Assembly: GCF_016862635.1 (NCBI RefSeq)
Contig: NZ_BONI01000024.1
Location: 1-64,000 of the forward strand
DNA length: 64,000 nt
Source of the DNA: Catellatospora coxensis
GTDB taxonomy: Bacteria; Actinomycetota; Actinomycetes; Mycobacteriales; Micromonosporaceae
Direction of reading: 5' to 3'
Position numbers and translations under genes: made by a program. Under the pieces are notes generated by a model that was not told the DNA's origin, searched no databases, and worked only from the letters and a program-made list of their open reading frames with translations. Numbering within the stretch: position 1 is the stretch's first letter; each line of letters starts with the position of its first letter. Positions 264 to 53,664 of the stretch are shown here, piece after piece.

Positions 264-368
264 ATGGACGTCGCAGCCCTCCAGGCGCGCAGGGCGTGGG
301 CGGAGTCGGCACGTGGCGAGCTCGCCGGGCCTTCGGTTCTGGCGCAGGTGCTCGTCAGTCCGTCGTGA
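264..368 (+). CDS. Putative 34-aa leaderless upstream ORF
   Basis: A short reading frame starts at ATG 264 directly after a -10-like element and ends in TGA at 366-368. The stop overlaps the GTG start (365) of the HAD-GH65 gene as GTGA, so translation could be coupled. No domain is recognisable in the 34-residue product, which contains an Ala/Arg-rich stretch. It may simply deliver ribosomes to the downstream start, or be non-coding. The support is the promoter spacing and the stop/start overlap, not homology. Confidence 0.35.
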   Translation: MDVAALQARRAWAESARGELAGPSVLAQVLVSPS

Positions 369-3300
369 GCGCGACAGCCGCGGCTCGCCCGGAGAACACC
401 GGGGTGCTGCGTGTCGACCAGGTCGACGCGGTGGTGTTCGACCTCGACGGCGTGCTGACCGATACCGCGCGGCTGCACGCCGCCGCTTGGAAGCAGGCCT
501 TCGACGACGCCCTGCGCGCTCACGACGGCGCGGGTTTCACACCGTTCGACCTCGACGCCGATTACCGGGCTCACGTCGACGGGCGGCCACGTCTGGACGG
601 CGCGCGGGCGTTCCTCGCGTCACGGCACCGGCTGCTGCCGGACGGCAGTCCCGCCGACCCGCCCGGCGTGGAGACGGTGTGGGCAGTGGCGAACCGGAAG
701 AACCAGCTGTTCACGGAACTGCTCGACGAGCGTGGCGTACGTACGTTCGACTCCTCGGTCGACCTCGTGCGGGCGCTGCGGGCCGCCGGCGTGGCCACCG
801 CGGTCGTCACGGCGAGCCGCAACGCAGGGCGGGTACTCGCCGCGACCGGCCTCGCCGAGCTGTTCGACGCGCGCGTCGACGGTGAGGACGCGGCGGCGCT
901 GCGCCTGCCCGGCAAACCCGACCCGGCCACGTACCTGGAAGCGGTCCGGCGTCTCAACGTCTCGCCCGACCGTGCGGTGATCGTCGAGGACGCGCTGGCC
1001 GGCGTCGAGGCGGGCCGCCGGGGCGGGTTCGGTCTGGTGGTCGGCGTGGACCGGCGGGGCCGTCCCGGCCTGCTGGAGGCGGCGGGCGCCGATCTGGTCG
1101 TCACCGATCTGGCCGCCCTCACCCTGGACCCGTCTCATCCACGCCGCCCGCCCGGCCTGGCCGAGGCCGGGCGCGACTTCTGCGGCGGCGGCCAGGCGGG
1201 AGACGGCTGGGTGCTGTGCTACGAGGGTTTCGATCCCGCCCGAGAAGGCCTGCGGGAAGCGCTGTGCACCACCGGCAACGGATATCTCGGCACGCGCGGC
1301 GCCGTGCCGGAAGCCCGTGCCGACGGGGTGCACTATCCCGGCAGCTACCTCGCCGGTGTCTACAACCGGCTGCTCACCCGGGTGGAGGACCGCACGCTGG
1401 AGCATGAGCACCTGGTGAACGTGCCGAACTGGCTGTGTCTGCGGTTCCGCGCCGAGGGTGACGACTGGTTCCAGCCGTCCACCGCCGACCTTGTCGCGTA
1501 CCGCACCGAGCTCGACCTGCGCTGCGGCGTGCTCACCCGCAGCCTGCGGTTCCGTGACAGGCGCGGCCGCCACACGGCGGTCACGCAGCGGCGCCTGGTG
1601 CACATGGGCTGGTCGCATCTGGCCGCGCTGGAGACCGTGTTCACGGCCGAGGACTGGTCCGGCACGGTCGAGGTGTGCTGCGGAGTCGACGGGGAGGTCG
1701 TCAACGCCAACCTGCCCGAGGACGCCCCGCTGGCCAAGACGCACCTGCTGGGGGAGAGCGCCATGGCCGAGGGCGACCTCGCCGCGCTGACCGTCGTGAC
1801 GACGCAGTCACGGGTCCGTATCGCGACCGCGGCCCGCACCGTCGTCCGCGACGGCGCGGGCCGCCCGCTGGCCGTGCCGCGCGATCCGGTGGTTCGGGAG
1901 CGCTTTGCGGGGCAGGCGCTGCGATGCGAGCTGGCGCGGGGTCGGCCGCTGGTGGTGGAGAAGGTCGTCGCGGTGGCCACCTCGCGTGACCCCGGGATCA
2001 GCGAGCCGATGCTGGCCGCGAGGGAAGCCGTGGCGGGCGCGGGCGCCTTCGCCGAGCTGCTGGACTCCCAGCAGGCGGCGTGGGCTGCGCTGTGGGAGCG
2101 GTTCGACCTGGCCGTGGATGCCGACGACGAGGTGGTGCTCGCCTTGCGGCTGCACACCTTCCACCTGTTGCAGACCCTGTCGCCGCACACCGCCCAGCTC
2201 GACGCGGGGGTGCCGGCCCGCGGGCTGCACGGGGAGGGCTACCACGGGCATGTGTTCTGGGACGAGATGTTCGTGTTCCCGGTGCTGAATCTGCGGCTGC
2301 CCGCGCTGTCGCGGGCGCTGCTGCTGTACCGGTGGCGGCGGCTGGACGCCGCCCGGCGAGCCGCGCGGGCCGCGGGCCGGGCCGGGGCGATGTACCCGTG
2401 GCAGAGCGGCAGCGACGGCCGGGAGGAGACGCCGCTGGAGCTGTACGACCAGGTCATGGGCCGGTGGGTTCCGGACTTCTCGCATCTGCAGCGCCACGTC
2501 GGCATCACGATCGTCTACGACATCTGGCAGTACTACCAGGTCACCGGTGACGTGGACTTCCTCGCCGAGTACGGCGCCGAGACGGTCGTCGAGATCGCCC
2601 GGTATCTGGCCGGGCTCACGGACTACGACCCCGACGACGACCGCTACGGGATCTCCGGCGTCGTCGGGCCGGACGAGTACCACGACGCCTACCCGGGCGC
2701 GGCGGAGCCGGGCCTGCGAGACAACACGTACACCAACGTGATGACCGCGTGGGTGCTCTGCCGCGCGCTCGACGTGATCGCGCTGCTGGCCGGCCACCAC
2801 TGCGGCCGGCTGTGGGCGCGGCTCGGCCTCAGCGAGACGGAGACCCGCTGGTGGGAGCGGATCAGCCGCCGCATGCGGGTGCCGTTCCACGACGGTGTGA
2901 TCAGCCAGTTCGCCGGCTACGGCGACCTGGCGGAGTTCGACTGGGCCGGTTACCGGCAGCGCTGCGGCGACCTCGTCGGCATCGACGCGCTGCTGCGCCG
3001 GGAGGGTGACTCGCCGAACCGGTACCGGCTGTCCAAGCAGGCGGACGTGCTGATGCTGCTGTACCTGCTGTCGGCCGAGGAGCTGCGGGAGCTGTTCGGC
3101 CGCCTGGGCTACCCGCTGGAACCGGCGACCGTCGAGCGCACCGTCGCCTACTACCTGGCCCGCGTCGCCCACGGGTCGAGCCTGAGCCGGATCGTGCACA
3201 GCTGGGTGCAGGCCCGCGCCGACCGCGAGCAGTCCTGGAAGCTGTTCGCCGAGGCGCTGCGCGCCGACCTCGCCGACACCCGCGGCGGCAGCACGCGCAA

Positions 3301-3592
3301 CGGCGTGCATCTGGGCGCCATGGCCGGCACCATCGACCTGGCCATGCGCTGCTACACGGGCCTGGAGACCCGCGGCGACGTGCTCTACCTGCACCCGCTC
3401 CTGCCCGCGGAGCTGCGCGCGCTGCACGTGGAAGTGCTCTACCGCGGGCACTGGGTCGTGATCGACGTCGACCATCAGCGGTTGCGGGTCGCGCTGCGGC
3501 CCTGCGAGGCGGCGCCGATCAGTATCTGCGTCGACGGGGTGGTGCACCGCCTGGCAGCCGGCCGCCATCGCGAGTTCCGACGGTCGGGCTGA
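365..3592 (+). CDS. Beta-phosphoglucomutase / GH65 disaccharide phosphorylase fusion
   Basis: A 1075-aa fusion. Residues about 20-240 are a HAD-superfamily beta-phosphoglucomutase: FDLDGVLTDT with nucleophile Asp26 and Asp28, GKPDP, and VEDALAGVEAG. Residues about 280-1070 are a glycoside hydrolase family 65 phosphorylase of the maltose/trehalose/kojibiose type, with GPDEYHD carrying the general acid Glu771 and SKQAD typical of the phosphate site. GH65 releases beta-glucose 1-phosphate by phosphorolysis and the mutase makes glucose 6-phosphate, so the fusion converts storage disaccharide to a glycolytic intermediate without spending ATP. The open frame extends back to 59, but homology begins near GTG 365, which overlaps the stop of a short upstream ORF (GTGA). 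The exact disaccharide cannot be read from sequence. Cytosolic. Confidence 0.9.
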   Translation: MSATAAARPENTGVLRVDQVDAVVFDLDGVLTDTARLHAAAWKQAFDDALRAHDGAGFTPFDLDADYRAHVDGRPRLDGARAFLASRHRLLPDGSPADPPGVETVWAVANRKNQLFTELLDERGVRTFDSSVDLVRALRAAGVATAVVTASRNAGRVLAATGLAELFDARVDGEDAAALRLPGKPDPATYLEAVRRLNVSPDRAVIVEDALAGVEAGRRGGFGLVVGVDRRGRPGLLEAAGADLVVTDLAALTLDPSHPRRPPGLAEAGRDFCGGGQAGDGWVLCYEGFDPAREGLREALCTTGNGYLGTRGAVPEARADGVHYPGSYLAGVYNRLLTRVEDRTLEHEHLVNVPNWLCLRFRAEGDDWFQPSTADLVAYRTELDLRCGVLTRSLRFRDRRGRHTAVTQRRLVHMGWSHLAALETVFTAEDWSGTVEVCCGVDGEVVNANLPEDAPLAKTHLLGESAMAEGDLAALTVVTTQSRVRIATAARTVVRDGAGRPLAVPRDPVVRERFAGQALRCELARGRPLVVEKVVAVATSRDPGISEPMLAAREAVAGAGAFAELLDSQQAAWAALWERFDLAVDADDEVVLALRLHTFHLLQTLSPHTAQLDAGVPARGLHGEGYHGHVFWDEMFVFPVLNLRLPALSRALLLYRWRRLDAARRAARAAGRAGAMYPWQSGSDGREETPLELYDQVMGRWVPDFSHLQRHVGITIVYDIWQYYQVTGDVDFLAEYGAETVVEIARYLAGLTDYDPDDDRYGISGVVGPDEYHDAYPGAAEPGLRDNTYTNVMTAWVLCRALDVIALLAGHHCGRLWARLGLSETETRWWERISRRMRVPFHDGVISQFAGYGDLAEFDWAGYRQRCGDLVGIDALLRREGDSPNRYRLSKQADVLMLLYLLSAEELRELFGRLGYPLEPATVERTVAYYLARVAHGSSLSRIVHSWVQARADREQSWKLFAEALRADLADTRGGSTRNGVHLGAMAGTIDLAMRCYTGLETRGDVLYLHPLLPAELRALHVEVLYRGHWVVIDVDHQRLRVALRPCEAAPISICVDGVVHRLAAGRHREFRRSG

Positions 3593-3615
3593 TCGGTATC
3601 GCCCAGTCTGGGAGG

Positions 3616-3907: not shown

Positions 3908-6523
3908 ATGAGCGGACCGCACACCCGTCCTGCGGCGCAGTCGGCGGCTGCGAGCGTGCCTGCTGGAGGGCTCACCGCAGCGCAGGTGGGCCGCCAACGC
4001 ACCCGGTCCGGCCCGAACACGCTGCCCGCGGCCCGCCGGCCGCCGGTCTGGCTGCTGCTGATCCGGCAGCTCACGCATTTCTTCGCCCTGTTGCTGTGGC
4101 TGGCGGCCGCGCTCGCCCTGCTCGCCGGGATGCCGCAACTCAGCGTCGCGATCATCATTGTCGTGCTGGTCAACGGCGTGTTCGCGTTCGTCCAGGAGTA
4201 CCGCGCCGACCGGGCGGTGGAGCGCCTGCGTGACCTGCTGCCCGCACAGGCCGTCGTACGCCGGGACGGCCACCGCCGCACCGTGGCCGCGGCCGACCTG
4301 GTACCCGGCGACGTCGTCCTGCTGGAGGCCGGTGACCGGGTCAGCGCCGACCTGGACCTGCTGTCGGCGGCCGGCCTGGCGGTCGACGAGTCGCTGCTGA
4401 CCGGGGAGAGCGTGCCCCGCCGGGCGCAGGCCGGACAGGTGCTGTACGCCGGCACGTTCGTCGTGGAGGGCGCGGCAGAGACCGTCGTGGCGGCTACCGG
4501 GGCGCGTACCCGGCTGGCCGGCATCGCCGCGATCAGCCAGGCGGCCCGCCGCCCGCCCAGCCCGCTGGCGGTGCGGCTGGGCCGCGTGGTGCAGGTCGTC
4601 GCGGTGACCGCGGTCGCGGCGGGCAGCGTGCTGTTCGGCGTCGGGCTCCTGCTCGGGCTGCCCCCGCGGCAGGGTTTCCTGTTCGCGCTCGGGGTGACCG
4701 TCGCCCTGGTGCCGGAGGGCCTGCTGCCCACGGTGACGCTGGCCCTGGCGTACGGCGCGCACGCGATGGCCCGCCGCAACGCCCTCGTCCGCCGTCTGGA
4801 GGCGGTGGAGACGCTGGGTTCGGTGACCTTCATCTGCACCGACAAGACGGGAACGCTCACCTGTAACCAGATGACAGTGGCACAGGTGTGGACCCCCGCA
4901 GGACAGGCCCGCGTCACCGGCCAAGGCTACGACCCCCACGGACGCATCGACGCCGCGCCCGCCGTCGCCGCGCAGGTTGCCGAGCTGGCCTACGCGGCCG
5001 TGCGGGCCTCGCGAGGCAGGCTCACCCCCCATGGCGAGGCGTGGCAGCCGCACGGCGACCCGATGGAGGTGGCGCTGCACGTCCTCGCCCTGCGTGCGGG
5101 AGTCGACGTGGATGCTCGTTCGCAGCGCGAGCCGGAGCAGCTGTGGCTGCCCTTCGATCCGCAGCGGCTGCGTGCGGCGAGCCTGTGCGGCGGAACGCTG
5201 TACGTCAAGGGCGCCCCGGAGCGGCTGCTGGCCGACTGCCGCGGCGACATCCAGGCCGCGCTGCAGGCCGCACACACCATGGCCGACGACGGCCTGCGGG
5301 TGCTCGCCGTCGCCCGCCAGCCCGGCGTCACGGCGGCCACCGCGCCTACCGCCTCCTCCCTCGACCTGCTCGGGGTGGTCGGCCTGCTCGACCCGCCCCG
5401 CCCGGACGTCGGCGGGGCCGTGGCCGCCTGCCGTCGCGCCCACATCCGCCTCGCGATGGTCACCGGTGACCACCCGGCCACCGCCCGGGCCCTGGCCGTG
5501 CGGGTGGGGCTGTGTGCTTCCGAACCGGTCGTGGTGACCGGCGACCAGTTGCCCGCCAGCGATCGGGAGCTGGGCGAGCTGGTGGACCGCGACGGCGTCG
5601 TCGTCGCGCGGGTCACTCCGGAGCAGAAGCTGCGGATCGCCAGGGCGCTGCGGTCGCGCGGGCACGCGGTGGCGATGACGGGCGACGGCGTCAACGACGC
5701 ACCCGCACTGCGGGAGGCCGACATCGGCATCGCGATGGGCGCCTCCGGCAGCGACGTCGCCCGGGAGAGCGCCGACCTGGTCCTGCTCGACGACCACTTC
5801 GCGACCATCGTCGCCGCGGTGGAGACCGGCCGGGCCACCTTCGCCAACATCCGCCGCTTCCTGACCTACCACCTCACCGACAACGTGGCCGAGCTGGCCC
5901 CGTTCGTGGTCTGGGCGCTGACCGGCGGGGCGTTCCCGCTGGCCATCGGGGTGCTGCAGATCCTGGCCCTGGACATCGGCACGGACCTGCTGCCGGCGCT
6001 GGCGCTCGGCGCCGAACCACCCAACCCGCGCACGCTGGCCGGACCGGCGCGAACCGGGCAGCTCATCGACCGCAGGCTGCTCGCGCGTGCCTTCGGTGTG
6101 CTCGGCCCGGCCGAGGTCATGGTGTCGCTGGGCGCGTTCGCAGCGGTGCTGATCGCGGGCGGGTGGCGCTGGGGTCTGACGCCGTCCGCGGAGTTGCTGG
6201 CCGCGGCGTCGGGCGCCGCGTTCGCCGCGATCGTGCTCGGGCAGCTGGCCAACGCCTTCGCGTGCCGCAGCGAGGTGCGCCCGGCGTTCCTGCTGGATCC
6301 GCGCCGTAACCCGCTGCTGCTGTGGGCTGTGGCCACCGAACTGGTGCTGCTGTGCGCGTTCCTGGGCGTGCCGGTCGTCGCACGGACGCTGGGCGGGTCG
6401 TGGCCGCCCGCCTTCGGCTGGGCGCTGGCGGCCCTGGCCGTGCCCGTGCTCCTGCTGGCCGATGCGGCGCACAAGGCGTGGCGCGGCGGTCGGCTCAGCG
6501 CGGCCGCAGCTGTACGGCGGTGA
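3908..6523 (+). CDS. P2-type cation-transporting ATPase (CtpF-like)
   Basis: An 871-aa integral membrane pump. Visible in order: N-terminal cation-ATPase segment, actuator motif LTGESVP, membrane helix 4 with VPEGLLP, phosphorylation motif DKTGTLT with Asp312, GDGVNDAPAL hinge, and a C-terminal bundle of membrane helices. PEGL in M4 and the absence of CPC or metal-binding domains place it with P2-type pumps (Ca2+, Na+/K+-like) such as mycobacterial CtpF, a DosR-regulon member. The transported ion is not certain. Probably co-transcribed with the DUF1918 gene. Its last 29 bases overlap the 3' end of the convergent formate dehydrogenase gene. Confidence 0.9.
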   Translation: MSGPHTRPAAQSAAASVPAGGLTAAQVGRQRTRSGPNTLPAARRPPVWLLLIRQLTHFFALLLWLAAALALLAGMPQLSVAIIIVVLVNGVFAFVQEYRADRAVERLRDLLPAQAVVRRDGHRRTVAAADLVPGDVVLLEAGDRVSADLDLLSAAGLAVDESLLTGESVPRRAQAGQVLYAGTFVVEGAAETVVAATGARTRLAGIAAISQAARRPPSPLAVRLGRVVQVVAVTAVAAGSVLFGVGLLLGLPPRQGFLFALGVTVALVPEGLLPTVTLALAYGAHAMARRNALVRRLEAVETLGSVTFICTDKTGTLTCNQMTVAQVWTPAGQARVTGQGYDPHGRIDAAPAVAAQVAELAYAAVRASRGRLTPHGEAWQPHGDPMEVALHVLALRAGVDVDARSQREPEQLWLPFDPQRLRAASLCGGTLYVKGAPERLLADCRGDIQAALQAAHTMADDGLRVLAVARQPGVTAATAPTASSLDLLGVVGLLDPPRPDVGGAVAACRRAHIRLAMVTGDHPATARALAVRVGLCASEPVVVTGDQLPASDRELGELVDRDGVVVARVTPEQKLRIARALRSRGHAVAMTGDGVNDAPALREADIGIAMGASGSDVARESADLVLLDDHFATIVAAVETGRATFANIRRFLTYHLTDNVAELAPFVVWALTGGAFPLAIGVLQILALDIGTDLLPALALGAEPPNPRTLAGPARTGQLIDRRLLARAFGVLGPAEVMVSLGAFAAVLIAGGWRWGLTPSAELLAAASGAAFAAIVLGQLANAFACRSEVRPAFLLDPRRNPLLLWAVATELVLLCAFLGVPVVARTLGGSWPPAFGWALAALAVPVLLLADAAHKAWRGGRLSAAAAVRR

Positions 6524-9155
6524 CCTTGTACTCCGGGCAGGAGGTCACCTCGTCCACCGCCGCGGAGGTGAGCAGGTTCGCGGCCACATCCGGGAAATGG
6601 AACGCCATGAACACCTGCCCGAGGGCCATCTCCGAGGTCAGGCGGGCCGTCGCGGTGACGCTGCCGCGCCGGCTGGTGATCTCTACGGCCGCGCCGTCGC
6701 GCAGGCCGAGCGCCGCGGCGTCGGCGGGGTGCATGTCGAGGGTCTCGTGCGGCTGCAACGCCAGGTTGGGTGTGCGCCGAGTCATCGTGCCGGCGTTGTA
6801 GTGCGTCAGCCGGCGTCCCGTGATGAGCACGTACGGGTAGGCCTCGTCCGGCTGCTCGCCGGGCGGCAGCCATTCTCTGGCGGCGAGCTGCGCCCGGCCG
6901 TTCGGCGTGGCGAACGACCGCAGGTGCAGGCGCGGCTGCCCGGGGTCGTCGGTGGAGCGGCACGGCCAGTGCAGGGGTCCTTCGCGGTCCAGGCGCGCGT
7001 GCGAGACCCCCGCGAACAGCGGCGCGACCCGGGCGCATTCGTCCAGCGCCGCGGCGGGCGTGGCACAGCCGAGATCACCGCCGAGCGCGGCCGCCACCGC
7101 CTGGATGATCGCGAAGTCGGCCCGTGCCGATCCCGGTGTCGGCAGGGCGGGACGGACCCGCTGGAAGCGGCGGTCGAAGTTGACGAACGTGCCGTCCTTC
7201 TCCAGGAACGACGCGCCCGGCAGCACCACGTCGGCCAGCCGCGCGGTGTCGGTCAGGAAGATCTCCTGGCAGACGACGAACTCGCACGCGGCCAGCGCCG
7301 CGCGCACGTGGCCGCTGTCCGGGTCGGTCTGCGCGATGTTCTCGCCGAAGACGTACAGCGCCCGCAGGCGGCCGTCGAGCGCCGCGTCGAACATCTCCGG
7401 GATACGCAGGCCCGCACGGTCCGGTACGGGGCAGCCCCAGACCTGCGCACACCGTGCCCGCGCCTGGGCGTCGGCGACGGGCCGGTAGCCGGGCAGCAGA
7501 TCCGGCAACGCGCCCATGTCGGACGCGCCCTGCACGTTGTTCTGCCCGCGCAACGGGTTCACGCCGCCGCCGTGCTGCGTGCCGACCGCACCGCGCAGGA
7601 TCGCCAGATTCGCCAGCGTCCGCACACCGTCCGTGCCGTGCGCATGCTCGGTGACCCCCAACCCGTAAATGATCATCGGGGTCTGTGCCGTGCCGTACAG
7701 CCGGGCCGCCTCCCGCAGCGCGGGCGGCGCCACCCCGCTGAGCTGCGCGACCCGTTCCGGCGAGAACCGGCGCAGCTGCTCCCGGAGGATGTCGAGCCCG
7801 TCCGCGCGGTCGGCGAGAAAACCGGGGTCGGTCCAGCCCTGCTCCAGCATGATCCGGGCCAGACCGTTGAACACCGCCACGTTACTGCCGGGGCGGGCGG
7901 CCAGGTGCACGTCGGCGAGCGCCGCCAGCTCGGTGCGGCGCGGGTCGATCACCACCAGCTTCGCGCCCGACAGCGCCCGCTGCCGGATACGCGCGCCGAT
8001 CACGGGGTGCGCCTCGGTCGGGTTGGCTCCGGCGACCAGGAGGCAGCCGGCGCGCTCGATGTCCTCGGCGGGGTTGGTGCCGCCCGCCAGGCCGAACGCC
8101 GCTGTCAGCCCGGCTGCCGAGGGCGCGTGGCAGATGCGCGAGCAGTTGTCGACGTTGTTGGTGCCGACCACCGCGCGCATCAGCTTCTGCATCAGGTAGT
8201 TCTCCTCGTTGGTGGCGCGGGCCGAGGAGATCGCCGCGACGGCGTCCGGTCCGTGGCGGCCGATGACACCGCCGATGCGTTCGCCGATCAACGCGAGCGC
8301 GTCCTCCCAGCTCGCCGGTGCGAGCCGGTCACCGTCGCGGATCAGCGGGGTGGTCAGCCGGTCGGGCGAGGTCGCGAAGCCGTACGCGAACCGGCCCTTC
8401 ACGCAGGCGTGGCCGCGGTTGACGGGACCGCGGCGATCGGGGGTGATCTGGTCGACCCCGCCGTCGGCGACGTGCACGGTCAGCGCGCACCCGACACCGC
8501 AGTACCCGCACGTGGTGTCCACCGCGATCGGCGAAACGGGGGCGACCTGCCGTCCCGCCTGGGTGATGGCACCGGTCGGGCAGGTGTCGACGCAGCCGCC
8601 GCAGGAGACGCACGCCGACTGCGCCCAGCTGCCCGGACCGGGCGCGACGACCGTGTCGGCGCCGCGGCCGGCCAGCGTCAGAGCGAACGTGCCCTGCACG
8701 TCGTCGCACATGCGCACACATCGCACGCACGCGATGCACAGATCCCGGTCCAGGTGCACGTAGGGGTGCGAGTCGTCGCGGCCCAGCCCGCGCCCGGCCG
8801 CCGCGAACGCCCCGGCGTCCACGCCGAGCTCGCGGCATCGCGCGGCCAGTTCCGTGGGCAGCTCCCGCGCCTCGCGGGGCAGCCGCTCGACGGTCAGCTC
8901 CAGCACCTGCCGCGCCATCGCGACGACATCAGGTTCCCGGGTGCGGATGACGTCGCCGTCGGCAGCCGGCGTCGCGCAGGCCGCGACGACGCCGCGGCCG
9001 TCGACGCGTACCAGGCACAGCCGGCAGCTGCCCGACGGGCTGAACCGGTCGTCGTGGCACAGGGTCGGCACCGCGGCACCGGCTGCCCGCGCCGCCTCCA
9101 GCACCGTCGCGCCGGGCGCCGGCTCGACCTCCCGGCCGTCGACGGTGACCCTCAT
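6495..9155 (-). CDS. fdhF: NAD-dependent formate dehydrogenase, molybdenum catalytic subunit
   Basis: An 886-aa FdsA/FdhF-type subunit. The N-terminus binds [2Fe-2S] (Cys33, 44, 47, 60), then two 4Fe-4S ferredoxin-type motifs (Cys140/143/146/150 and Cys182/185/188/192), then the molybdopterin oxidoreductase 4Fe-4S motif (Cys216, 219, 223, 251). NCSRICHAPSA places Cys342 as the Mo/W ligand, so it is the cysteine rather than the selenocysteine form. A molybdopterin-dinucleotide-binding domain follows near the C-terminus. It oxidises formate to CO2 and passes electrons to the NADH-forming subunit encoded just upstream. The ATG at 9155 overlaps the stop of that gene (ATGA); an open frame continues upstream but homology starts here. 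No fdhD is seen nearby. The 3' end overlaps the convergent ATPase gene. Confidence 0.9.
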   Translation of the reverse strand: MRVTVDGREVEPAPGATVLEAARAAGAAVPTLCHDDRFSPSGSCRLCLVRVDGRGVVAACATPAADGDVIRTREPDVVAMARQVLELTVERLPREARELPTELAARCRELGVDAGAFAAAGRGLGRDDSHPYVHLDRDLCIACVRCVRMCDDVQGTFALTLAGRGADTVVAPGPGSWAQSACVSCGGCVDTCPTGAITQAGRQVAPVSPIAVDTTCGYCGVGCALTVHVADGGVDQITPDRRGPVNRGHACVKGRFAYGFATSPDRLTTPLIRDGDRLAPASWEDALALIGERIGGVIGRHGPDAVAAISSARATNEENYLMQKLMRAVVGTNNVDNCSRICHAPSAAGLTAAFGLAGGTNPAEDIERAGCLLVAGANPTEAHPVIGARIRQRALSGAKLVVIDPRRTELAALADVHLAARPGSNVAVFNGLARIMLEQGWTDPGFLADRADGLDILREQLRRFSPERVAQLSGVAPPALREAARLYGTAQTPMIIYGLGVTEHAHGTDGVRTLANLAILRGAVGTQHGGGVNPLRGQNNVQGASDMGALPDLLPGYRPVADAQARARCAQVWGCPVPDRAGLRIPEMFDAALDGRLRALYVFGENIAQTDPDSGHVRAALAACEFVVCQEIFLTDTARLADVVLPGASFLEKDGTFVNFDRRFQRVRPALPTPGSARADFAIIQAVAAALGGDLGCATPAAALDECARVAPLFAGVSHARLDREGPLHWPCRSTDDPGQPRLHLRSFATPNGRAQLAAREWLPPGEQPDEAYPYVLITGRRLTHYNAGTMTRRTPNLALQPHETLDMHPADAAALGLRDGAAVEITSRRGSVTATARLTSEMALGQVFMAFHFPDVAANLLTSAAVDEVTSCPEYKVTAVQLRPR

Positions 9156-14753: not shown

Positions 14754-14768
14754 ACCGCCGGGAACCGG

Positions 14769-38465: not shown

Positions 38466-38525
38466 ACCGACGCGGCGAACCCGAGCACCTCACTTCTTCG
38501 AGGTCTGCGGCGCAGGCTCGGGCGT

Positions 38526-38555: not shown

Positions 38556-38564
38556 CAGGGGCTG

Positions 38565-39209: not shown

Positions 39210-39300
39210 GGTCTTCTCCTTCGGGGGAAGGGGGTCGCTGTCTGGACCCAGAGTCCCGTGCGCACCCGCCGCCACAGCAGAGTGCGAAGACCTGTCGTGA

Positions 39301-39316
39301 TGGGACCATCGGCCCT
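39301..39316. promoter_or_regulatory. DosR-box-like site
   Basis: TGGGACCATCGGCCCT: half-sites GGGAC and GGCCC with four bases between. It lies upstream of the membrane-protein gene (start 39209). A second partial copy, GGACCCAGAGTCCC, is at 39244-39257. Confidence 0.65.
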
Positions 39317-39468
39317 GAGCGGACCGGCCGTGTGGCCCCTGGGCTCGTCGGCCCACTGCGGATGCGCCGCGAGGCGGTCATGGGCTGTGTGCGTGGGGGC
39401 GAGACGTTGGTCCTGACCTGGGGCCTGGTCGGAAGGCGCCTGGCTGTGCCCTGAGGAGAGGCTCGGCC

Positions 39469-40110: not shown

Positions 40111-40147
40111 GGCGGGTTCCTGTTCCGGCCGTCGGCGCTCGTGCAGG

Positions 40148-41152: not shown

Positions 41153-41202
41153 CGTCTGCCTCCAGGATTCGTTGCCTCAATTGCACGCGTCGCGCGCCTG
41201 CG

Positions 41203-41275
41203 TATGCCAGGAGCGAAGGGTCCTTCCGGCAGGGACTTTCGACCCTGCCGACAGCGTCAAGGGCCGACCGGCCCG
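41203..41275 (-). promoter_or_regulatory. Promoter with two strong DosR-box-like sites
   Basis: AGGGACTTTCGACCCT (41231-41246) and AGGGCCGACCGGCCCG (41260-41275) are both inverted repeats with a 4-nt spacer. GCATAC (41208-41203) on the minus strand is a plausible -10, about 31 bp from the centre of the nearer box. AGGGTCC at 41217-41223 may be an extra half-site. Confidence 0.75.
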
Positions 41276-41312
41276 GTACGGCGCAGGTGTGCCTCGGTCA
41301 GCTGGTGCCGTG

Positions 41313-42305: not shown

Positions 42306-42340
42306 GCCTCCACTGTCGATGCCGCCCGGTGCCACTGGTC

Positions 42341-42356
42341 AGTGCCGTTGGTCCCG
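42341..42356 (-). promoter_or_regulatory. DosR-box-like site of nitroreductase copy 5
   Basis: Read on the minus strand, CGGGACCAACGGCACT has GGGAC-CAAC-GGCAC, one mismatch from the GGCCC half-site of the strong copies. It is centred about 31 bp before the GACAGT -10-like hexamer. Confidence 0.45.
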
Positions 42357-42364
42357 AATCTGCG

Positions 42365-42391
42365 GGACCGGCCCGTGGCGCGGGCCGGTCC
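42365..42391 (-). terminator. Hairpin ending the phosphoketolase / USP transcript
   Basis: GGACCGGCCCG-TGGCG-CGGGCCGGTCC is a perfect 11-bp stem with a 5-nt loop, 34 bp beyond the stop of the truncated USP frame on the minus strand. Confidence 0.65.
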
Positions 42392-42424
42392 GCGGCGGCG
42401 ACGCCCGGTCGTCGGCGGGCGTGT

Positions 42425-42705
42425 TCAGCGGATCACGATGACGGGGCAGCCCGCGTGGTGCAGCAGCACCTGGCTGACCGAACCCCGCAGCAGACCGGCG
42501 GCGCCGGCGTGACCGCGGCTGCCGACCACGACGAGTCCCGCCTCAGCCGACTGATGCATCAGCGTGGTGCCCACCGCGCCGGTGCGGATCAGCCGCTGGA
42601 TCACCGGGACGTGCGGGTGGTGGCGACGGGCCCCGGCGATGGCGGCGTCGAGCAGCGCCTGTGCCGCGAGTTCCTCTGGTGATGCGCTCAGCGGCGGGTC
42701 GGTGT
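42425..42705 (-). pseudogene. 5'-truncated universal stress protein overlapping phosphoketolase
   Basis: In the frame +2 relative to phosphoketolase, the minus strand encodes PEELAAQALLDAAIAGARRH, PVIQRLIRTGAVGTTL and then VVVGSRGHAGAAGLLRGSVS with VLLHHAGCPVIVIR and a stop at 42425. This is the C-terminal half of a USP domain with an intact G-2x-G-9x-G-S motif. The N-terminal VDGS strand is missing and no ATG or GTG start is present. The frame runs into the 3' end of the phosphoketolase gene, so the truncation joint lies at or near that gene's stop (42688). Confidence 0.7.
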
Positions 42706-45048: not shown

Positions 45049-45107
45049 GTTCGTCAGCGTGGCTGCTGTGACCTGTGAGGTTGTAGGGCCGGGCAGCCCG
45101 GCCGGTC

Positions 45108-45195
45108 CGGGACTTTCGGCCCTGCGCCGTCTCCTGGGCTGGCCGCGGGCCGCGCGCAGGGATGGCGTGGTCGCAGGTTCGGGACTTTCGGCCCG
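45108..45195. promoter_or_regulatory. Two strong DosR-box-like sites, divergent xfp / ATPase promoters
   Basis: CGGGACTTTCGGCCCT (45108-45123) and CGGGACTTTCGGCCCG (45180-45195) are the same sequence apart from the last base, 72 bp apart, each preceded by TC or TT as in the mycobacterial consensus. They occupy the 228-bp gap between phosphoketolase and the ATPase-USP-CBS genes. TACATC (45252-45257) may be the ATPase -10. Confidence 0.75.
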
Positions 45196-45276
45196 GGGCA
45201 TCGTGGCCCACCGGCCTGTGCGCGGCGGGGCGGGCTGCCCTTTGCCGCAGGTACATCACGGCGCGAGCCTTGAACC

Positions 45277-47823
45277 ATGGCCCTCACCGAGACACCCGCC
45301 CCGGACATCGGGCAGAGACCCGCCGGTCTCACCGGCGGCGAAGCCGCGACACGGCTGGCGCACGACGGTCCGAACGCCGTCCCGCGCCCGCGGCCGCCGC
45401 GTCTGCTGCGGCGGGTGGTGGCGCAGCTGGCCGACCCGCTCGTGTCGCTGCTGCTGGTCGCCGGGGCCGTGACCGGACTGCTCGGCGACTGGGCCGACAC
45501 GGCGATCATCGCGGTGGTCGTGTGCCTGAACACCGCCATCGGGGTCGCGCAGCAGGTCCGCGCCGACAAGGCCGTCGCCGCGCTGGACACTCTCACCGCA
45601 CCGACCGCCCGGGTCACCCGCGACGGTACCGAACTCGTCGTGCCCGCCGCCGACCTGGTCCGAGGCGACGAAGTACGGGTCGAGGCGGGTGACATCGTGC
45701 CCGCCGACCTGCTGCTGCACGACGCCCACCGGTGCCAGGCCGACGAAGCGGCCCTGACCGGGGAGTCGGTGCCTGTCGCCCGTGCCGCCGGCGACGAACT
45801 GTCCGCCGGGACGGTGCTGGTGACCGGCCGAGCCGCGGGCACCGTGGTGCGTACCGGTGCACGCAGCGCCCTGGGCCGCATCGCTGAACTCGTCGCCACC
45901 ACCCATGCCGGCCCGACGCCGCTGCAGCGGCGCCTCACCCGGCTCAGCCGTGTCCTGGGCGCCCTCGCCGTGGCGCTGTGCCTGGTCGTGTTCGCCGTGG
46001 GCCTGGCCTCGGGCAGGCCTCTGCTGTTGATGGCCCTGACGGCGGTCAGCCTGGTCGTCGCTGCGGTCCCGGAGTCGCTGCCCGCCGTGGTGACCCTCTC
46101 GCTGGCCCTGGGCGCCCGGCGGATGGCCCGCCGAAAGGCCATCCCGCGCAACCTGCACGCCGTCGAGACGATGGGGTCGGTGACCGTCGTCGCCTCCGAC
46201 AAGACCGGCACCATGACCGAGGGCCGCATGACGGTACGCCGCGCCGTCACCCCCGATACCGACGTATCGGTCACCGGCACCGGCTACGAACCCGCCGGGC
46301 AGATCTCGGGCACGGACCGGCCGCTGCCACAGGACCTGCTCGACCTTGCCCGCGCGGGACTGCTGTGCTCTGACGCCGCCGTCCTGCCACCGGCACCCGA
46401 CCGGCCGGGCTGGACCGCCGTCGGCGACCCCCTCGAAGCGGCGCTGGTCACGTTCGCCGCCCGCTGCGGCCTGGACCCCGCCGCAACCCGCGCGGCCGCG
46501 CCACGCTGGGCCGAACACCCCTTCGACCAGGCCACCCGGCAGATGACCACCGTCCACCGCGACGGTGACACGTACCTGACCATCTGCAAAGGCGCACCCG
46601 AAAGCGTCCTGTCCGCACCCGTCGCCGACCCGGCCGACCCACGCCTGCCCGCCGCCCGCCAAGCCGCCGCCGACCTGACCGCTGCAGGCCTGCGCGTACT
46701 CGCGATCGCGGCGGCCACCACCGCCGAGCCGACGAACCCGATCGCGCCGACCGGCCTGCGGCCCCTCGGTGTCATCGGCATCGAGGACCCGCTACGGCCC
46801 TCCGCCGCCACGACCGCCGCCGAGTTCACCCAGGCGGGCATCCGGCTCATGCTGATCACCGGCGACCACCCCGGCACCGCCGCGCACATCGCCGCCCAGG
46901 TCGGCATCTGGCAGCCCGGCGACCCGATCGCCACCGGCGACCAGCCGGAGCGGGCCCACCAGGTGCGGGTCTTCGCCCGCACCCAGCCCGAGCAGAAGCT
47001 CGACATCATCGCCGAGCTCCAGCACCACGGCCACGTCGTCGCGATGACCGGCGACGGCGTCAACGACGCCCCCGCCCTCAGCCGCGCCGACATCGGCGTG
47101 GCGATGGGCGGCGGCACCGAGGTAGCCCGGCAGGCCGCCGACCTCGTCCTGGTCGACGACAACCTCGCCACCGTCAGCCACGCCGTGGCCGAAGGCCGCC
47201 GCGTCTACGACAACATCCGCCGCTTCCTGCGCTACGGACTGGCCGGCGGCACCGCCGAACTCGCCGTCATGCTCATCGGGCCGCTGCTCGGCCTCGGCCT
47301 GCCGCTGCTGCCCGGCCAGATCCTGTGGATCAACCTGCTCACCCACGGCCTGCCCGGCGTCGCGCTGGGCGCCGAACCCGCCGAACCCGACGTGCTGCGT
47401 CGGCCGCCGCGCCCGCCCGACGAGCAGATCCTCGGCGACGGCCTGCTACGCGGCGTGCTGGCCCTCGGCGCGCTGCTGACCGCCGTCACCCTCGGTACCG
47501 GCCTGTACGCCGCCGCGGCCGGCTGGCCCTGGCAGAGCATGGTCTTCGTCGTGCTCGGCCTGGCCCAGCTCGGCATCGCCCTGGCCTCCCGCGCCACCCG
47601 GCCCCACGGCACCCGGTGGGCCAACCCCGGCCTGCTCGCCGCCGTCGCACTGTCGGCGGCCGCCCAGTTCGCCGCCGTCGCGATCCCCGCCCTGCGCGAC
47701 CTGCTGGGCACCGCCCCGCTGAACGCGACCCAGCTCGCCTTCTGCGCCGTGGCCGCCCTGCTGCCCGGAGGGCTGGCGCTCATCTGGCGGACAGCCCTGC
47801 GACACCGCCACCACCAGCGATAA
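45277..47823 (+). CDS. P2-type cation-transporting ATPase, second copy (CtpF-like)
   Basis: An 848-aa P-type pump: N-terminal cation-ATPase domain, actuator LTGESVPVARA, M4 with AAVPESLPAVVTL, SDKTGTMTEGRMTV with phosphorylated Asp308, TGDGVNDAPALSRADIGVAMG, and a C-terminal helical bundle. It groups with Ca2+/Mn2+-type P2 pumps such as CtpF and Pma1-like bacterial enzymes; the ion is not certain. It differs clearly from the pump at 3908 (PESLP versus PEGLL), so the two are not recent duplicates. First gene of a likely operon with the USP 22 bp downstream and the CBS protein. Confidence 0.9.
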   Translation: MALTETPAPDIGQRPAGLTGGEAATRLAHDGPNAVPRPRPPRLLRRVVAQLADPLVSLLLVAGAVTGLLGDWADTAIIAVVVCLNTAIGVAQQVRADKAVAALDTLTAPTARVTRDGTELVVPAADLVRGDEVRVEAGDIVPADLLLHDAHRCQADEAALTGESVPVARAAGDELSAGTVLVTGRAAGTVVRTGARSALGRIAELVATTHAGPTPLQRRLTRLSRVLGALAVALCLVVFAVGLASGRPLLLMALTAVSLVVAAVPESLPAVVTLSLALGARRMARRKAIPRNLHAVETMGSVTVVASDKTGTMTEGRMTVRRAVTPDTDVSVTGTGYEPAGQISGTDRPLPQDLLDLARAGLLCSDAAVLPPAPDRPGWTAVGDPLEAALVTFAARCGLDPAATRAAAPRWAEHPFDQATRQMTTVHRDGDTYLTICKGAPESVLSAPVADPADPRLPAARQAAADLTAAGLRVLAIAAATTAEPTNPIAPTGLRPLGVIGIEDPLRPSAATTAAEFTQAGIRLMLITGDHPGTAAHIAAQVGIWQPGDPIATGDQPERAHQVRVFARTQPEQKLDIIAELQHHGHVVAMTGDGVNDAPALSRADIGVAMGGGTEVARQAADLVLVDDNLATVSHAVAEGRRVYDNIRRFLRYGLAGGTAELAVMLIGPLLGLGLPLLPGQILWINLLTHGLPGVALGAEPAEPDVLRRPPRPPDEQILGDGLLRGVLALGALLTAVTLGTGLYAAAAGWPWQSMVFVVLGLAQLGIALASRATRPHGTRWANPGLLAAVALSAAAQFAAVAIPALRDLLGTAPLNATQLAFCAVAALLPGGLALIWRTALRHRHHQR

Positions 47824-47845
47824 TCCATACGGACAGGAGTCACCC

Positions 47846-48745
47846 ATGGACAGCAACACCGAGCACCCGCAGCGAGCCGTCGTGGTGGGTGTCGACGGTT
47901 CAGCCGCCGCACTCGCCGCAGTGCGCCTCGCCGCGCACGAGGCCGCCCGCCGCGGCCTCGACCTGCGGATCGTGCACGCGTTCATCTGGCCGCTGATGCA
48001 CGTCGACGTCGGCGCATCCGAGGCCGTGCCCGAAGGCGGCCTGCGCCACGACGCCGAACGGCTGCTCGCCGAAGCCGCCACGGCCGCCTCGGCCACGCAG
48101 CCCGACGTCACCGTCACGACCGAACTCGTCACCGGCGCACCCGCGGCGGTACTGCTCGCTGCGGCACGCCACGCCGAGCTGCTCGTCCTCGGCGACCGCG
48201 GGCTGGGCGGATTCACCGGCCTGCTGCTGGGATCGGTCGCCGTCCAGGTCACCGCCCACAGCACGACACCGGTCCTCGTCGCTCGCGGCGAGGAACACGC
48301 CGGCGGCCCGATCGTGGTGGGCGTCGACGATTCGCCCGAGGGCGCAGCGGCGATCGAGGCCGCGTTCGCCGCCGCCGAGCGACGGCACGCCGAACTGCTG
48401 GCCGTACGCACCTGGACCTACCCGGCCATGGCGACGCTCTACACGCCACCGGTGCCGGCCGACTGCACACCGGTCGAGGACGCCGAACGGCACCTGCTCG
48501 CCGAGACCGTGTCCACGGGCGCGAAACTCCACACCGAGGTGCAGGTGCGGGAGCAGCTGGTGTGCGGCCGGCCCGGGCGCACCCTCGTGCAGCTCAGTGA
48601 GCTCGCGCAGTTGGTCGTCGTCGGGGCCAGGGGACGCGGCGGCTTCGCCGGGCTGCTGCTCGGCTCGGTCAGCCAGCAGGCCTTGCACCACGCCGCCTGC
48701 CCCGTACTGGTGGTCCCGGACCCACGAACCGAACGCACACCGTGA
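47846..48745 (+). CDS. Tandem universal stress protein, copy 2
   Basis: A 299-aa protein of two USP domains: AVVVGVDGSAAALAAV and LGDRGLGGFTGLLLGSVAV (first), PIVVGVDDSPEGAAA and [19 protein letters not shown] (second). Both keep the ATP-binding glycine motif. ACAGGAG lies 6 nt before ATG 47846. Located 22 bp after the ATPase gene and 28 bp before the CBS gene, it is probably translated from the same mRNA. Confidence 0.9.
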   Translation: MDSNTEHPQRAVVVGVDGSAAALAAVRLAAHEAARRGLDLRIVHAFIWPLMHVDVGASEAVPEGGLRHDAERLLAEAATAASATQPDVTVTTELVTGAPAAVLLAAARHAELLVLGDRGLGGFTGLLLGSVAVQVTAHSTTPVLVARGEEHAGGPIVVGVDDSPEGAAAIEAAFAAAERRHAELLAVRTWTYPAMATLYTPPVPADCTPVEDAERHLLAETVSTGAKLHTEVQVREQLVCGRPGRTLVQLSELAQLVVVGARGRGGFAGLLLGSVSQQALHHAACPVLVVPDPRTERTP

Positions 48746-48773
48746 ACGCCGGCGGATTGAACGGGGGAGCGCC

Positions 48774-49196
48774 ATGCCAACGACTTCGGACTCGGCCCAC
48801 GCGGTGGGCCTGCCGCAGCGAGCAGTACGGGAGGTCATGAGCGGCCACCCGGTACAGGTCGCCGCCTCGTCGACCCTGGAAGACGCTCTGGCGACCATGG
48901 CCGGCGCGAAGCTGCGCCACCTCGTCGTCGTCGACGGGGCCGGGCGGTGCGCCGGGGTGATCAGCGACCGCGCGATCGTCGCGGCGTGGGCGGCCGAACC
49001 CGGATGCCTGTCCGCCCGCCGGGTGTCCAGCGTGCTCGACAGCCCTCCGGCTGCCGTCGACGTCGACGCGACGGTCGTCGACGCCGCCCGGCTCATGTGC
49101 GGCGCCCACGTCGACGCCGTCGCGGTCGTCGACCGTCGCGGCTGCGCGGCCGGCATCGTCACCGGCAGCGACCTGGTCTCGCTGCTCACCCGCTGA
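48774..49196 (+). CDS. CBS-domain pair protein (Hrp1-like), copy 2
   Basis: A 140-aa protein with two CBS domains: AVREVMSGHPVQVAASSTLE and RVSSVLDSPPAAVDVDATVV, ending in AGIVTGSDLVSLL. It resembles the copy at 29287 and the hypoxic response protein Hrp1. ATG 48774 follows a GGGGGAG stretch; the longer open frame upstream only overlaps the USP gene. Last gene of the ATPase-USP-CBS unit and next to the DevS-like kinase. Confidence 0.83.
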   Translation: MPTTSDSAHAVGLPQRAVREVMSGHPVQVAASSTLEDALATMAGAKLRHLVVVDGAGRCAGVISDRAIVAAWAAEPGCLSARRVSSVLDSPPAAVDVDATVVDAARLMCGAHVDAVAVVDRRGCAAGIVTGSDLVSLLTR

Positions 49197-51598
<2,402 letters not shown>

Positions 51599-51633
51599 AC
51601 CCGCATTGTCTCTCTGCCAGACCGGGGCCGGGA

Positions 51634-51674
51634 AGGGACCAAAGACCCGTCCGCGGACAGGACCACCGCCCCTG
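51634..51674. promoter_or_regulatory. Two DosR-box-like sites, divergent devR / nitroreductase promoters
   Basis: AGGGACCAAAGACCCG (51634-51649) and AGGACCACCGCCCCT (51659-51673) are inverted repeats with four-base centres, 25 bp apart. They serve the regulator gene on one side and, on the other, the nitroreductase whose ATG (51732) is 6 nt after GACAGT (51720-51725). Confidence 0.6.
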
Positions 51675-51731
51675 CCGCGCCAGGCCCGCCGGCACTGACC
51701 CCGCCCCATCATCCCGACGGACAGTGAAGCC

Positions 51732-52712
51732 ATGACCGCAGACGAGACGACCAGCGCCCCAGCGCTGTACGACGCGGCCCGCACCGCACTCGCCGCGCCG
51801 TCGATCTTCAACACCCAACCGTGGCGCTGGCACGCCGAACCCGACCAGCTACGCCTATACGCCGACCGCAGGCGCCAACTTTTCACCGCGGACCCGCAGG
51901 GCCGGCTCCTGACGATCAGCTGCGGCGCGGGACTGCACCACGCCCGCACCGCCCTGGCGGCCGCCGGACTCGACGCCGCCGTCGCCGAACTGCCCGACCC
52001 GGCCGACCCGGACCTGCTGGCCACGATCCGCATCGCCGGCCCGCACGAACCCGCACTCGCCGAACTGCAGGCATTCACCGCCATCACCCGCAGGCACACC
52101 GACCGCAGACCGTTCACCACACAACCGGTCACCGACGCCGCCTGCCGGGCACTGATCACCGCCGGAGAAACCCAGCACGCCCACGTCCACCTGGTCAGAC
52201 CAGAACAGGTCGCCGTCCTCGCCCTCACGGCGGTCCGCGCCGGGGCACTGCAACTGTCCGACCCCGACTACCGCGCCGAACTGGCCGACTGGACCCACCG
52301 GCCACCGTGGAGCGGCGAAGGCGTGACCACCGACACCACCGTACGCGCAGTCCCTCGCAAGGTCCCGATCCGCGACTACGCCCCCTTCGGCGGCCAGACC
52401 ATGCACCCGGGCCGCGACACCGACGCCGGAGCCCGCTACCTCGTGCTGTACACCGACGACGACACCCCCATCGCATGGCTGCACGCCGGACAGGCCCTGT
52501 CGGCGGTGCTGCTCACCGCGACGGTCCACGGCCTGGGCAGCGCACCCATCAGCGACGTCACCGAGGTCCCCGGCACCCGCGACGAACTGCGCCGGCTGCT
52601 GCCCGGACTCGGCCAGCCGCAGGTCTGCGTACGCATCGGCTACGCCCAACCCTGCACGCCACCGCCGACCACCCGCCGACCGTACGAAGAATCCATCAAC
52701 CCCACCCCCTGA
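51732..52712 (+). CDS. Acg-type nitroreductase family protein, copy 6
   Basis: A 326-aa Acg-group protein, closest in the window to copy 3: [76 protein letters not shown]-binding nitroreductase fold; substrate unknown. Leaderless-type start 6 nt after GACAGT. A tandem USP gene starts 14 bp after its stop, so the two are probably co-transcribed. Confidence 0.88.
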
Positions 52713-52725
52713 ACAGGAGACCGAC

Positions 52726-53664
52726 ATGACCGCCCACCGGCCGATCCTCGTCGGCGTCGACGGCTCGCCGTCCAGCCTCGCCGCCGCCTCCTACGCCGCC
52801 GACCTCGCCGTACGCCGCCAGGCACCCCTGCACCTGGTGTACGGCTACCTCAGCCCCCTGTTCGGCTACGGCACCGTCGGGATGGCCGAGGCCTACTACG
52901 ACGAGTCCGACACCCGCGCCGCGATCGACCGCAGCCTTGCCGACGCCGTCGATACCCTGCGCAAGCAGCACCCCGAACTCGGGGAGATCCACGCCCGGCA
53001 GATCACCGGCAGCCCCGCGCCGGTCCTGATCGAGCAGTCACGCACGGCGGCCGTGACCGTTGTCGGGTGCCGCGGCGTCGGAGGGTTCGCCGAGCTGCTC
53101 CTCGGCTCGGTGTCGGCGCAGGTCGCCGCCCACGCCCACGGCCCGGTCATCGTCGTGCGCCCGCCCGTGCCCGACCACATGATCGGACCAGGACCGGAAC
53201 AGCCGACACCGCCCGCCTCCCACGGCCCGATCGTGGTCGGCATCGACGGGTCCCCGGCCGCACAAGCCGCGCTGACCTTCGCCGCTGCCGAAGCCATCAG
53301 CCGTGACGTGCCGCTGGTCGCAGCGCACGTCTACTGGCCCCAGCCGTGGCTGAAACTCGGCGCTGACGACATCGATGCCCAGGCCGAAGCCGAGCGTGCC
53401 GCCGAGGACCGGGCGCAGCGTCTGCTCGCCGACGCCACCTCGGCGCTGATCACCACCCACCCGCAGCTGAAGCTCGAGACCCGCGCCATCCGCAGCCTCA
53501 ACAGCGAGTACAGCCTCGTCGAAGCCTCACGCGGCGCGACGCTGACCGTCGTGGGGTGCCGCGGTCGGGGCGGATTCGCCGGCCTGCTGCTCGGCTCCGT
53601 CAGCGGCGCCCTGGTCCACCACGCCCACAGCCCGGTCGCGGTCCTCCACCCGACCGAACACTGA
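52726..53664 (+). CDS. Tandem universal stress protein, copy 3
   Basis: A 312-aa protein with two USP domains: [14 protein letters not shown] and [20 protein letters not shown], then [15 protein letters not shown] and [19 protein letters not shown]. The glycine-rich ATP motif is intact in both halves. ACAGGAG lies 7 nt before ATG 52726. It is the last dormancy-type gene before the recombinase/tRNA scar. Confidence 0.9.

Follow-up and report, generated by a model that had tools for sequence, protein, structure and literature searches.

Gene content of the island

The first 64 kb of contig C24 of the Catellatospora coxensis genome (the window in what follows, numbered from contig base 1) carry genes for Acg nitroreductases, universal stress proteins (USPs) and a phosphoketolase, clustered with a DevS/DosT-type sensor kinase and two DevR-type response regulators (RR1 and RR2). 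We give a probability of roughly 0.8 to the reading that this island is the core of a DevR/OsdR-type regulon of Micromonosporaceae for survival under low oxygen (or nitric oxide, NO). The assembly comprises 9.35 Mb in 222 contigs and is 99.98% complete, with a reported contamination of 2.88%. Genes were annotated by Pfam domain searches of 59 open reading frames (ORFs) in the window, NCBIfam scans of ten, and whole-genome family searches. Gene starts were placed by hand from domain starts, and that of the phosphoketolase was placed after a nearby candidate regulator-binding box had already been seen. The right part of the window, which recurs as a unit and is called the core below, contains the following genes.

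38565-39209, minus strand: conserved membrane protein (read from the sequence, without a Pfam match) at the left end of the duplicated core; boxes upstream
39469-40110, minus strand: RR1, second DevR-type response regulator; best PDB match DevR (3c3w), E 1.7e-65
40148-41152, minus strand: Acg4, Acg-family FMN oxidoreductase (NF047509), upstream of RR1 on the same strand
41313-42335, minus strand: Acg5 (NF047509)
42425-42691, minus strand: USP remnant, 88 amino acids (domain search); a full tandem USP occupies the equivalent place on contig C64
42688-45045, minus strand: XFP phosphoketolase (XFP_N, XFP, XFP_C; start estimated)
45277-47823, plus strand: P-type cation ATPase 2 (domain search)
47846-48745, plus strand: tandem universal stress protein USP2 (Usp, two stretches)
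48762-49196, plus strand: CBS-pair protein 2, CBS2 (domain search; start estimated)
49284-50963, plus strand: DevS/DosT-type sensor kinase (Pfam GAF, HisKA_3, HATPase; PDB matches 2vzw and DevS GAF structures)
50960-51598, minus strand: RR2, DevR/OsdR-type response regulator; best PDB match DevR (3c3w), E 6.8e-75
51732-52712, plus strand: Acg6, divergent from RR2 (NF047509 at 51774-52691)
52726-53664, plus strand: tandem universal stress protein USP3 (Usp, two stretches); right end of the duplicated core, where the blastn block ends at 53670

Further members of the stress-related families lie to the left of the core.

15437-16441, plus strand: Acg1 (NF047509; start estimated)
16675-17982, plus strand: CBS-CBS-BON-USP fusion (domain search)
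29287-29760, minus strand: CBS-pair protein 1, CBS1 (domain search; start estimated)
29894-30901, plus strand: Acg2 (NF047509; start estimated)
30989-31418, minus strand: Hsp20 (PF00011 at 30998-31282; start estimated)
31533-32501, plus strand: Acg3 (NF047509; start estimated)
32722-33651, plus strand: tandem universal stress protein USP1 (Usp, two stretches; start estimated)
33693-34358, minus strand: Acg C-terminal fragment (NF047509 at 33783-33983, 21.3 bits, sub-threshold; no Pfam match)

An initial annotation of the window had listed six Acg nitroreductases, three full tandem USPs with a USP fusion and a fragment, Hsp20, two CBS-pair proteins, two P-type ATPases, phosphoketolase, formate dehydrogenase, acyl-CoA synthetase/pyruvate dehydrogenase (ACS-PDH) and a GH65 fusion, and every family in that list is present. 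Specifically, six full-length Acg proteins exceed the NF047509 cut-off (matches beginning at 15488, 29948, 31575, 40178, 41433 and 51774) in addition to the sub-threshold fragment; the full tandem USPs lie near 32722, 47846 and 52726; and the remaining families were recovered by domain or NCBIfam searches. Six of the 14 Acg proteins over this cut-off in the entire genome thus fall within 0.7% of its length. Because seven relatives (G001-G007) have 6, 3, 3, 4, 6, 2 and 2 such proteins, the C. coxensis genome is itself rich in Acg. Rfam (gathering threshold) and tRNA scans of the window gave no matches.

The sensor kinase and its response regulators

The kinase is 91-92% identical to its counterparts in Catellatospora tritici and 89% identical to that of C. 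vulcania. Its first GAF domain matches PDB entry 2vzw (labelled a probable histidine kinase, and which we take to be DosT) at E 7.5e-52 and DevS GAF structures at E 1.5e-47 to 1.8e-46, and we infer that a second, degenerate GAF lies between this domain and HisKA_3. Residue His142 aligns with the heme His of DevS, presumably the heme ligand of that protein. Of 533 relatives, the best 80 were compared as kin loci, and all 80 retain this residue, Tyr164 and the phospho-His at position 378. These features identify the DevS-like kinase of the initial annotation as DevS/DosT-type, with a predicted heme-binding GAF domain.

Among solved structures, both regulators are closest to DevR (3c3w), with 254 bits for RR2 and 224 bits for RR1, compared with 153 and 152 bits, respectively, for VraR. 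The two proteins are identical at 152 of 213 aligned positions, and each carries the phosphoacceptor D54 as well as K104, K179, K182 and N183 (DevR numbering), the last three of which presumably contact DNA. The DosR-like character first ascribed to the two regulators is thereby borne out, whereas the ORF start at 52228 given for RR2 is not: the DevR-like sequence begins at 51598, and the gene start is placed at about this position.

DevR/OsdR-type boxes

The regulator OsdR of Streptomyces coelicolor, described in the main text of a study of that protein as orthologous to the DevR system, recognizes a 16-bp palindrome and binds DevR sites (PMC5069765). A matrix built from 13 sites chosen from the 26 S. 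coelicolor sequences in Table 1 of that paper (threshold 8.8) was compared with 380 kb of control sequence (19 stretches of the same genome, 20 matches) and with 300 column-permuted matrices. It yields eight matches at window positions 28101-53700, an enrichment of 5.9-fold over control that is reached by 0 of 300 permuted matrices. The same is true for a second copy of the core on contig C64 (5.1-fold, 0/300) and for a fixed slice of 77 Micromonosporaceae loci outside Catellatospora (L003-L080 minus L039, many of which end at contig ends), where 183 matches correspond to a 4.4-fold enrichment (0/300). When all 26 S. coelicolor sites are used, seven matches are found in 28101-53700, all of them intergenic and equalled by none of the 300 permuted matrices, and two in 53701-64000 (19/300 as high).

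A third matrix was derived from 14 training sites in other core copies and other species, picked by eye from promoter alignments. Its ten matches in 28101-53700 are all intergenic (0/300), although the eight in 38501-53700 are not independent because some training sites are letter-identical to sites in the window core. Matches at positions 1-38500, outside the duplicated part, are independent of the training sites; here there are five, four of them intergenic, with 0/300 permuted matrices as high for intergenic matches and 26/300 for the total. The sites recovered by these approaches are as follows.

15413-15428: weak box before Acg1 (relative-derived matrix)
18044-18059: box before the ACS-PDH operon (relative-derived matrix 12.8; 13-site matrix 5.1, below the threshold of 8.8)
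29809-29824: box between CBS1 and Acg2 (13-site and relative-derived matrices)
31466-31481: box between Hsp20 and Acg3 (relative-derived matrix)
39301-39415: two matches, at 39301 and 39400, before the membrane-protein gene (matrices, promoter alignment)
41231-41275: two matches, at 41231 and 41260, before Acg4-RR1 (matrices; 41231 kept in four copies)
42341-42356: box before Acg5 (promoter alignment, relative-derived matrix)
45108-45123: DevR-type box between XFP and ATPase 2, first (matrices, GGGACYWWCGGYCC search, promoter alignment)
45180-45195: DevR-type box between XFP and ATPase 2, second (matrices, GGGACYWWCGGYCC search, promoter alignment)
51634-51649: DevR-type box between RR2 and Acg6 (box core retained in all six aligned copies)

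Across the whole genome the pattern GGGACYWWCGGYCC is matched exactly at seven places, all of which adjoin Acg or USP genes: three lie in the window, three on C64 and one on contig C9. Only the four on C64 and C9 are independent, because the pattern was chosen from window sites. A looser box pattern tolerating two mismatches did not exceed chance (13 matches versus 10.6 expected, with 25 of 100 shuffles as high), and therefore a position matrix and positional tests were needed.

In the promoter alignments, the box is retained at two sites before XFP in three copies, in the RR2-Acg6 intergenic stretch in all six, before Acg4 in four, before Acg5 in three and, more loosely, before the membrane-protein gene in six. 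No conserved box is visible in the alignments of the kinase, USP2 and CBS2 promoters.

Similar positional evidence comes from the 77 Micromonosporaceae loci, where RR2 is present in 67, XFP in 50, Acg in 71 and USP in 60. In the window, Acg, USP and Hsp20 genes cluster near the kinase and regulator; the counts among kin cover Acg and USP. By the relative-derived matrix a box precedes RR2 in all 65 loci with enough upstream sequence for testing, and XFP in 48 of 50, compared with just 4 of 77 for the kinase and 19 of 1406 control tiles. The 13-site matrix gives 57/65, 44/50, 3/77 and 18/1406, respectively. Moreover, the best match begins 50 or 51 bp ahead of the aligned RR2 start in 63 of the 65 loci. 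This pattern suggests that boxes of one kind stand upstream of both the regulator gene and its prospective targets.

Extra copies of the core

The initial annotation had called the island self-contained, a description that fails because further copies of the core exist, one on C64 and one on C9 whose kinase is decayed. At C64:4464-23027 the gene order of the window is repeated (membrane protein, RR1, Acg4, XFP, ATPase 2, USP2, CBS2, kinase, RR2, Acg6 and USP3), and the eleven proteins are 83-97% identical to those of the window in near full-length alignments with no stop or gap. C64 has an additional Acg gene between the membrane-protein gene and RR1, and a full tandem USP gene plus Acg remnants replace Acg5 and the USP remnant. 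The third copy, at about 44295-48922 of C9 (locus L087, 6296-10923), retains Acg6, RR2, the box, most of Acg5 and the membrane-protein gene. There the kinase is cut to some 110-125 codons and only a piece of Acg4 is left, while RR2 aligns without stop or gap. Thus, two copies of the 15-19 kb core show no visible damage and a third has a decayed kinase, and two close kinases would therefore serve at least five DevR-type regulators.

By blastn, the window is colinear with C64, and with the 60 kb fetched from C. tritici, only between about 38523 and 53670. The core is common to all three and the flanks differ in the stretches fetched; parts of the C. tritici flanks map to contigs C18, C23 and C25 of C. 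coxensis. The core therefore appears to have been moved or rearranged as one block. A simple empty-site proof of such movement failed, as the C. tritici flanks map to different contigs. The C9 locus is colinear with the C. vulcania locus well into its flanks.

The block structure of the copies is mosaic, and no clear order of duplication emerges from the gene trees. C24 groups with C64 in the XFP (94 support on the split) and Acg6 (68) trees, and this grouping is not resolved in those of the kinase and RR2. C9 groups with C. vulcania for RR2 (93) and Acg6 (96), but not for the membrane protein.

Three side observations concern these copies. In the joined C. vulcania loci L119-L120, a partial RR1-like stretch (26634-26870, 48% identical) lies between the membrane-protein gene and Acg4 and is perhaps a decayed RR1. 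Directly right of the window core, positions 53680-55600 are a patchwork of short pieces resembling scattered places in other Catellatospora genomes. A second HAD-GH65 fusion (70%) adjoins an Acg gene at C9:1985-6156 (locus L086).

The left half of the window

Other genes assigned in the left half are the following.

59-3592, plus strand: HAD + GH65 fusion (domain search); 61% counterpart in the Catelliglobosispora koreensis island
3908-6523, plus strand: P-type cation ATPase 1 (domain search); 67% counterpart in the C. koreensis island
6495-10774, minus strand: formate dehydrogenase alpha and NuoEF-like beta subunits, FdhA/FdhB (domain and NCBIfam searches)
18075-19850, plus strand: acyl-CoA synthetase (ACS), first gene of the ACS-PDH operon (domain search)
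19847-23150, plus strand: pyruvate/2-oxoacid dehydrogenase E1alpha, E1beta and E2 (domain search)

Judging from its families, we take the HAD-GH65 fusion to be a phosphorylase; its promoter would fall off the contig end because the ORF begins at base 59. The 53-kb span also holds genes that look unrelated, for a sulfatase, a GH26 mannanase, MscS and TerC. Two more features of this sort are a MEDS-STAS protein adjoining an RsbW-like HATPase at 36255-37569, a possible sigma-factor switch within the island, and an ORF at 14286-15113 with an ISL3-type transposase zinc ribbon, possibly a relic of an insertion element. Elsewhere, Hsp20, Acg3 and USP1 seem to constitute an independent module: in the KI3 genome (G003), DNA matches to the Hsp20 and USP1 stretches flank an Acg gene at C13:162738-167703.

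The left half is poor in boxes. The 13-site matrix finds no match in 1-28100, and the relative-derived matrix adds the site at 18044 and the weak one before Acg1. A view of the whole left half as lying outside the regulon is nevertheless countered in part by the C. koreensis island. There, counterparts of the left-half HAD-GH65, ATPase 1, esterase and ACS-E1alpha-E1beta-E2 genes lie within about 45 kb of the kinase and RR2, and MgtE shares their scaffold. An 80-kb stretch of this scaffold (C41:220001-300000, L130-L133) has 24 box matches compared with a permuted mean of 5.0 (1/300 as high), or nine with the 26-site matrix (5/300). One match lies about 140 bp ahead of the aligned esterase start and about 600 bp ahead of ACS, and another falls within the aligned HAD-GH65 stretch, at its 5' end; in C. 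koreensis this stretch is divergent from ATPase 1. Of eight genomes searched at the DNA level, only C. coxensis and C. koreensis gave a match to the ACS gene with an E value of 1e-40 or lower. Given this linkage and these boxes, part of the left half plausibly belongs to a wider regulon. The C. koreensis island is larger than that of the window and includes, besides several genes each for USP and Acg proteins, another kinase match that is more distant (38%).

The initial annotation had also placed fermentative enzymes in the program. The phosphoketolase, with its boxes, and ACS-PDH, with a weaker one, are consistent with that proposal; formate dehydrogenase has neither box nor linkage in its favor. 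By the relative-derived matrix, no box above threshold lies near the genes for formate dehydrogenase, sulfatase, GH26 or MscS, and regulon membership gained no support for these genes or for TerC.

Proposed mechanism and alternative explanations

Domains, aligned residues, boxes with their conservation, and the extra copies form the sequence basis for a DevR/OsdR-type low-oxygen regulon. We envisage that the kinase would bind heme in its first GAF domain and become activated by falling oxygen or by binding of NO or CO. The active kinase would then phosphorylate RR2, and probably RR1, at Asp54, and the phosphorylated regulators would occupy 16-bp palindromes of the form GGGNC-NNNN-GNCCC. On hypoxia, this would induce the regulator's own gene together with those for the Acg, USP, Hsp20, CBS and ATPase proteins and the phosphoketolase, and probably the ACS-PDH operon. 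The predicted metabolic role of the phosphoketolase is to convert sugar phosphates to acetyl phosphate without oxygen, from which ATP could be made via a putative acetate kinase.

A number of results weigh against this reading. The 13-site matrix is weak on C9 (7.9-fold, 9/300 permuted matrices as high) and on C. tritici (3.4-fold, 10/300), gives one match on KI3 (92/300), and finds none in the C. vulcania stretch. Use of all 26 sites keeps the window result yet weakens that for the C64 core (three matches, 27/300). With up to one mismatch, GGGACYWWCGGYCC is rarer in the genome than its reversed control (43 versus 74 matches), so that only exact matches discriminate. In window positions 1-28100, the 26-site matrix gives two matches, neither intergenic (129/300 as many in total), and the relative-derived matrix just two intergenic ones; so few matches leave co-regulation of much of the left half unsupported. 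Neither RR1 nor RR2 reaches an NCBIfam cut-off among the 25 families listed for each, and the targets of RR1 may differ. Finally, the kinase and RR2 genes are convergent, on opposite strands with 3' ends overlapping near 50960, and hence form no operon.

The alternative that survives best, though we consider it the lesser prospect, is that stress paralogues have piled up in a plastic region, with a functional regulon confined to the right part (about 38.5-53.7 kb) and an unrelated left part. The scarcity of boxes in 1-28 kb, the blastn colinearity restricted to the core, and the sulfatase, GH26, MscS and formate dehydrogenase genes without boxes all fit this view. Conversely, boxes precede ACS-PDH, CBS1/Acg2 and Hsp20/Acg3 outside the core, and the left-half genes recur near the box-rich C. 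koreensis pair. Rather unlikely, in our estimation, is a general stress or stationary-phase cluster whose DevR-like pair answers a redox, nutrient or developmental signal instead of oxygen or NO. S. coelicolor OsdR does affect development and many stress genes, as stated in the paper cited above (PMC5069765), and the MEDS-STAS/RsbW-like pair is located inside the island; however, the conserved His and Tyr aligned with DevS GAF structures and the phosphoketolase as a conserved box-bearing gene speak for the oxygen or NO signal. That the C64 copy is an artifact of assembly from a second, related strain is improbable despite the reported contamination and the 222 contigs, since no near-identical counterpart of C64 26000-36000, a stretch just 3 kb away from the core, occurs elsewhere in the genome (best other match 741 bp at 83%, with 40 of 1358 candidates scored), whereas a second strain would be expected to duplicate it.

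An extension of the low-oxygen regulon can be imagined, which we regard as a long shot. Once the regulator is on, acetyl phosphate from the phosphoketolase might both yield ATP and directly phosphorylate the DevR-type regulators, including that on C9 beside the decayed kinase, thereby forming a feed-forward latch that would hold its state without continued sensing, with extra module copies raising the gain. S. coelicolor OsdR is reported to be phosphorylated in vitro with acetyl phosphate (PMC5069765).

At the level of sequence evidence, the island extends the DevR/OsdR dormancy regulon to Micromonosporaceae, where its conserved core includes phosphoketolase, which might supply ATP and acetyl phosphate independently of oxygen, and can multiply within one genome. 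Anoxic survival of aerobic spore-forming actinomycetes would thus become testable in non-pathogenic strains. Among the matches listed in the open-licence literature (titles and abstract starts), there was no paper on such a system in Micromonosporaceae.

Comparison with known systems

The island shares its DevS/DosT-type kinase and DevR regulator families with the DosR/DevR regulon of Mycobacterium tuberculosis, whose targets likewise include Acg, USP and Hsp20 proteins. That regulon is scattered over the chromosome and has two kinases for one regulator, and we know of no phosphoketolase among its members. The M. tuberculosis DevR box has the same form as the island boxes (PMC5069765).

The island also resembles the OsdK/OsdR island of S. 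coelicolor (SCO0167-SCO0219), where, according to the main text, a DevS/DevR-type pair stands amid USP and nitroreductase-family genes and palindromic boxes of the same form (PMC5069765). One of the box matches in the C. koreensis island agrees letter for letter with the Table 1 site before SCO2347. Clustering, which the initial annotation had emphasized over scatter, is evident in the window but not new, as the S. coelicolor genes, including those for a nitrate reductase, are clustered too. This OsdR-controlled island is reported, in work cited there, to be induced by low oxygen and an NO donor. The two systems differ in that osdR and osdK form an operon, whereas the kinase and RR2 genes of C. 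coxensis are convergent and are accompanied by a second regulator and extra core copies. Metabolic targets listed for S. coelicolor include the nitrate reductase Nar2 and PPDK, and the word phosphoketolase is absent from the main text of that paper (PMC5069765); here the enzyme is encoded by a box-bearing core gene. No Nar2-type nitrate reductase was assigned among the 59 window ORFs scanned, and the one molybdopterin enzyme of the window passes the NCBIfam cut-off for formate dehydrogenase while staying below those for nitrate reductases.

The window phosphoketolase belongs to the same Pfam family, XFP, as the bifid-shunt type, but its dormancy-type box and its place in the island predict a role other than that of a main sugar route. 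In kind, therefore, this is a DevR/OsdR regulon island as shown earlier in S. coelicolor (PMC5069765). What is new in the variant is the phosphoketolase as a conserved box-bearing core gene, the convergent kinase and regulator, the second regulator, and the extra genomic copies.

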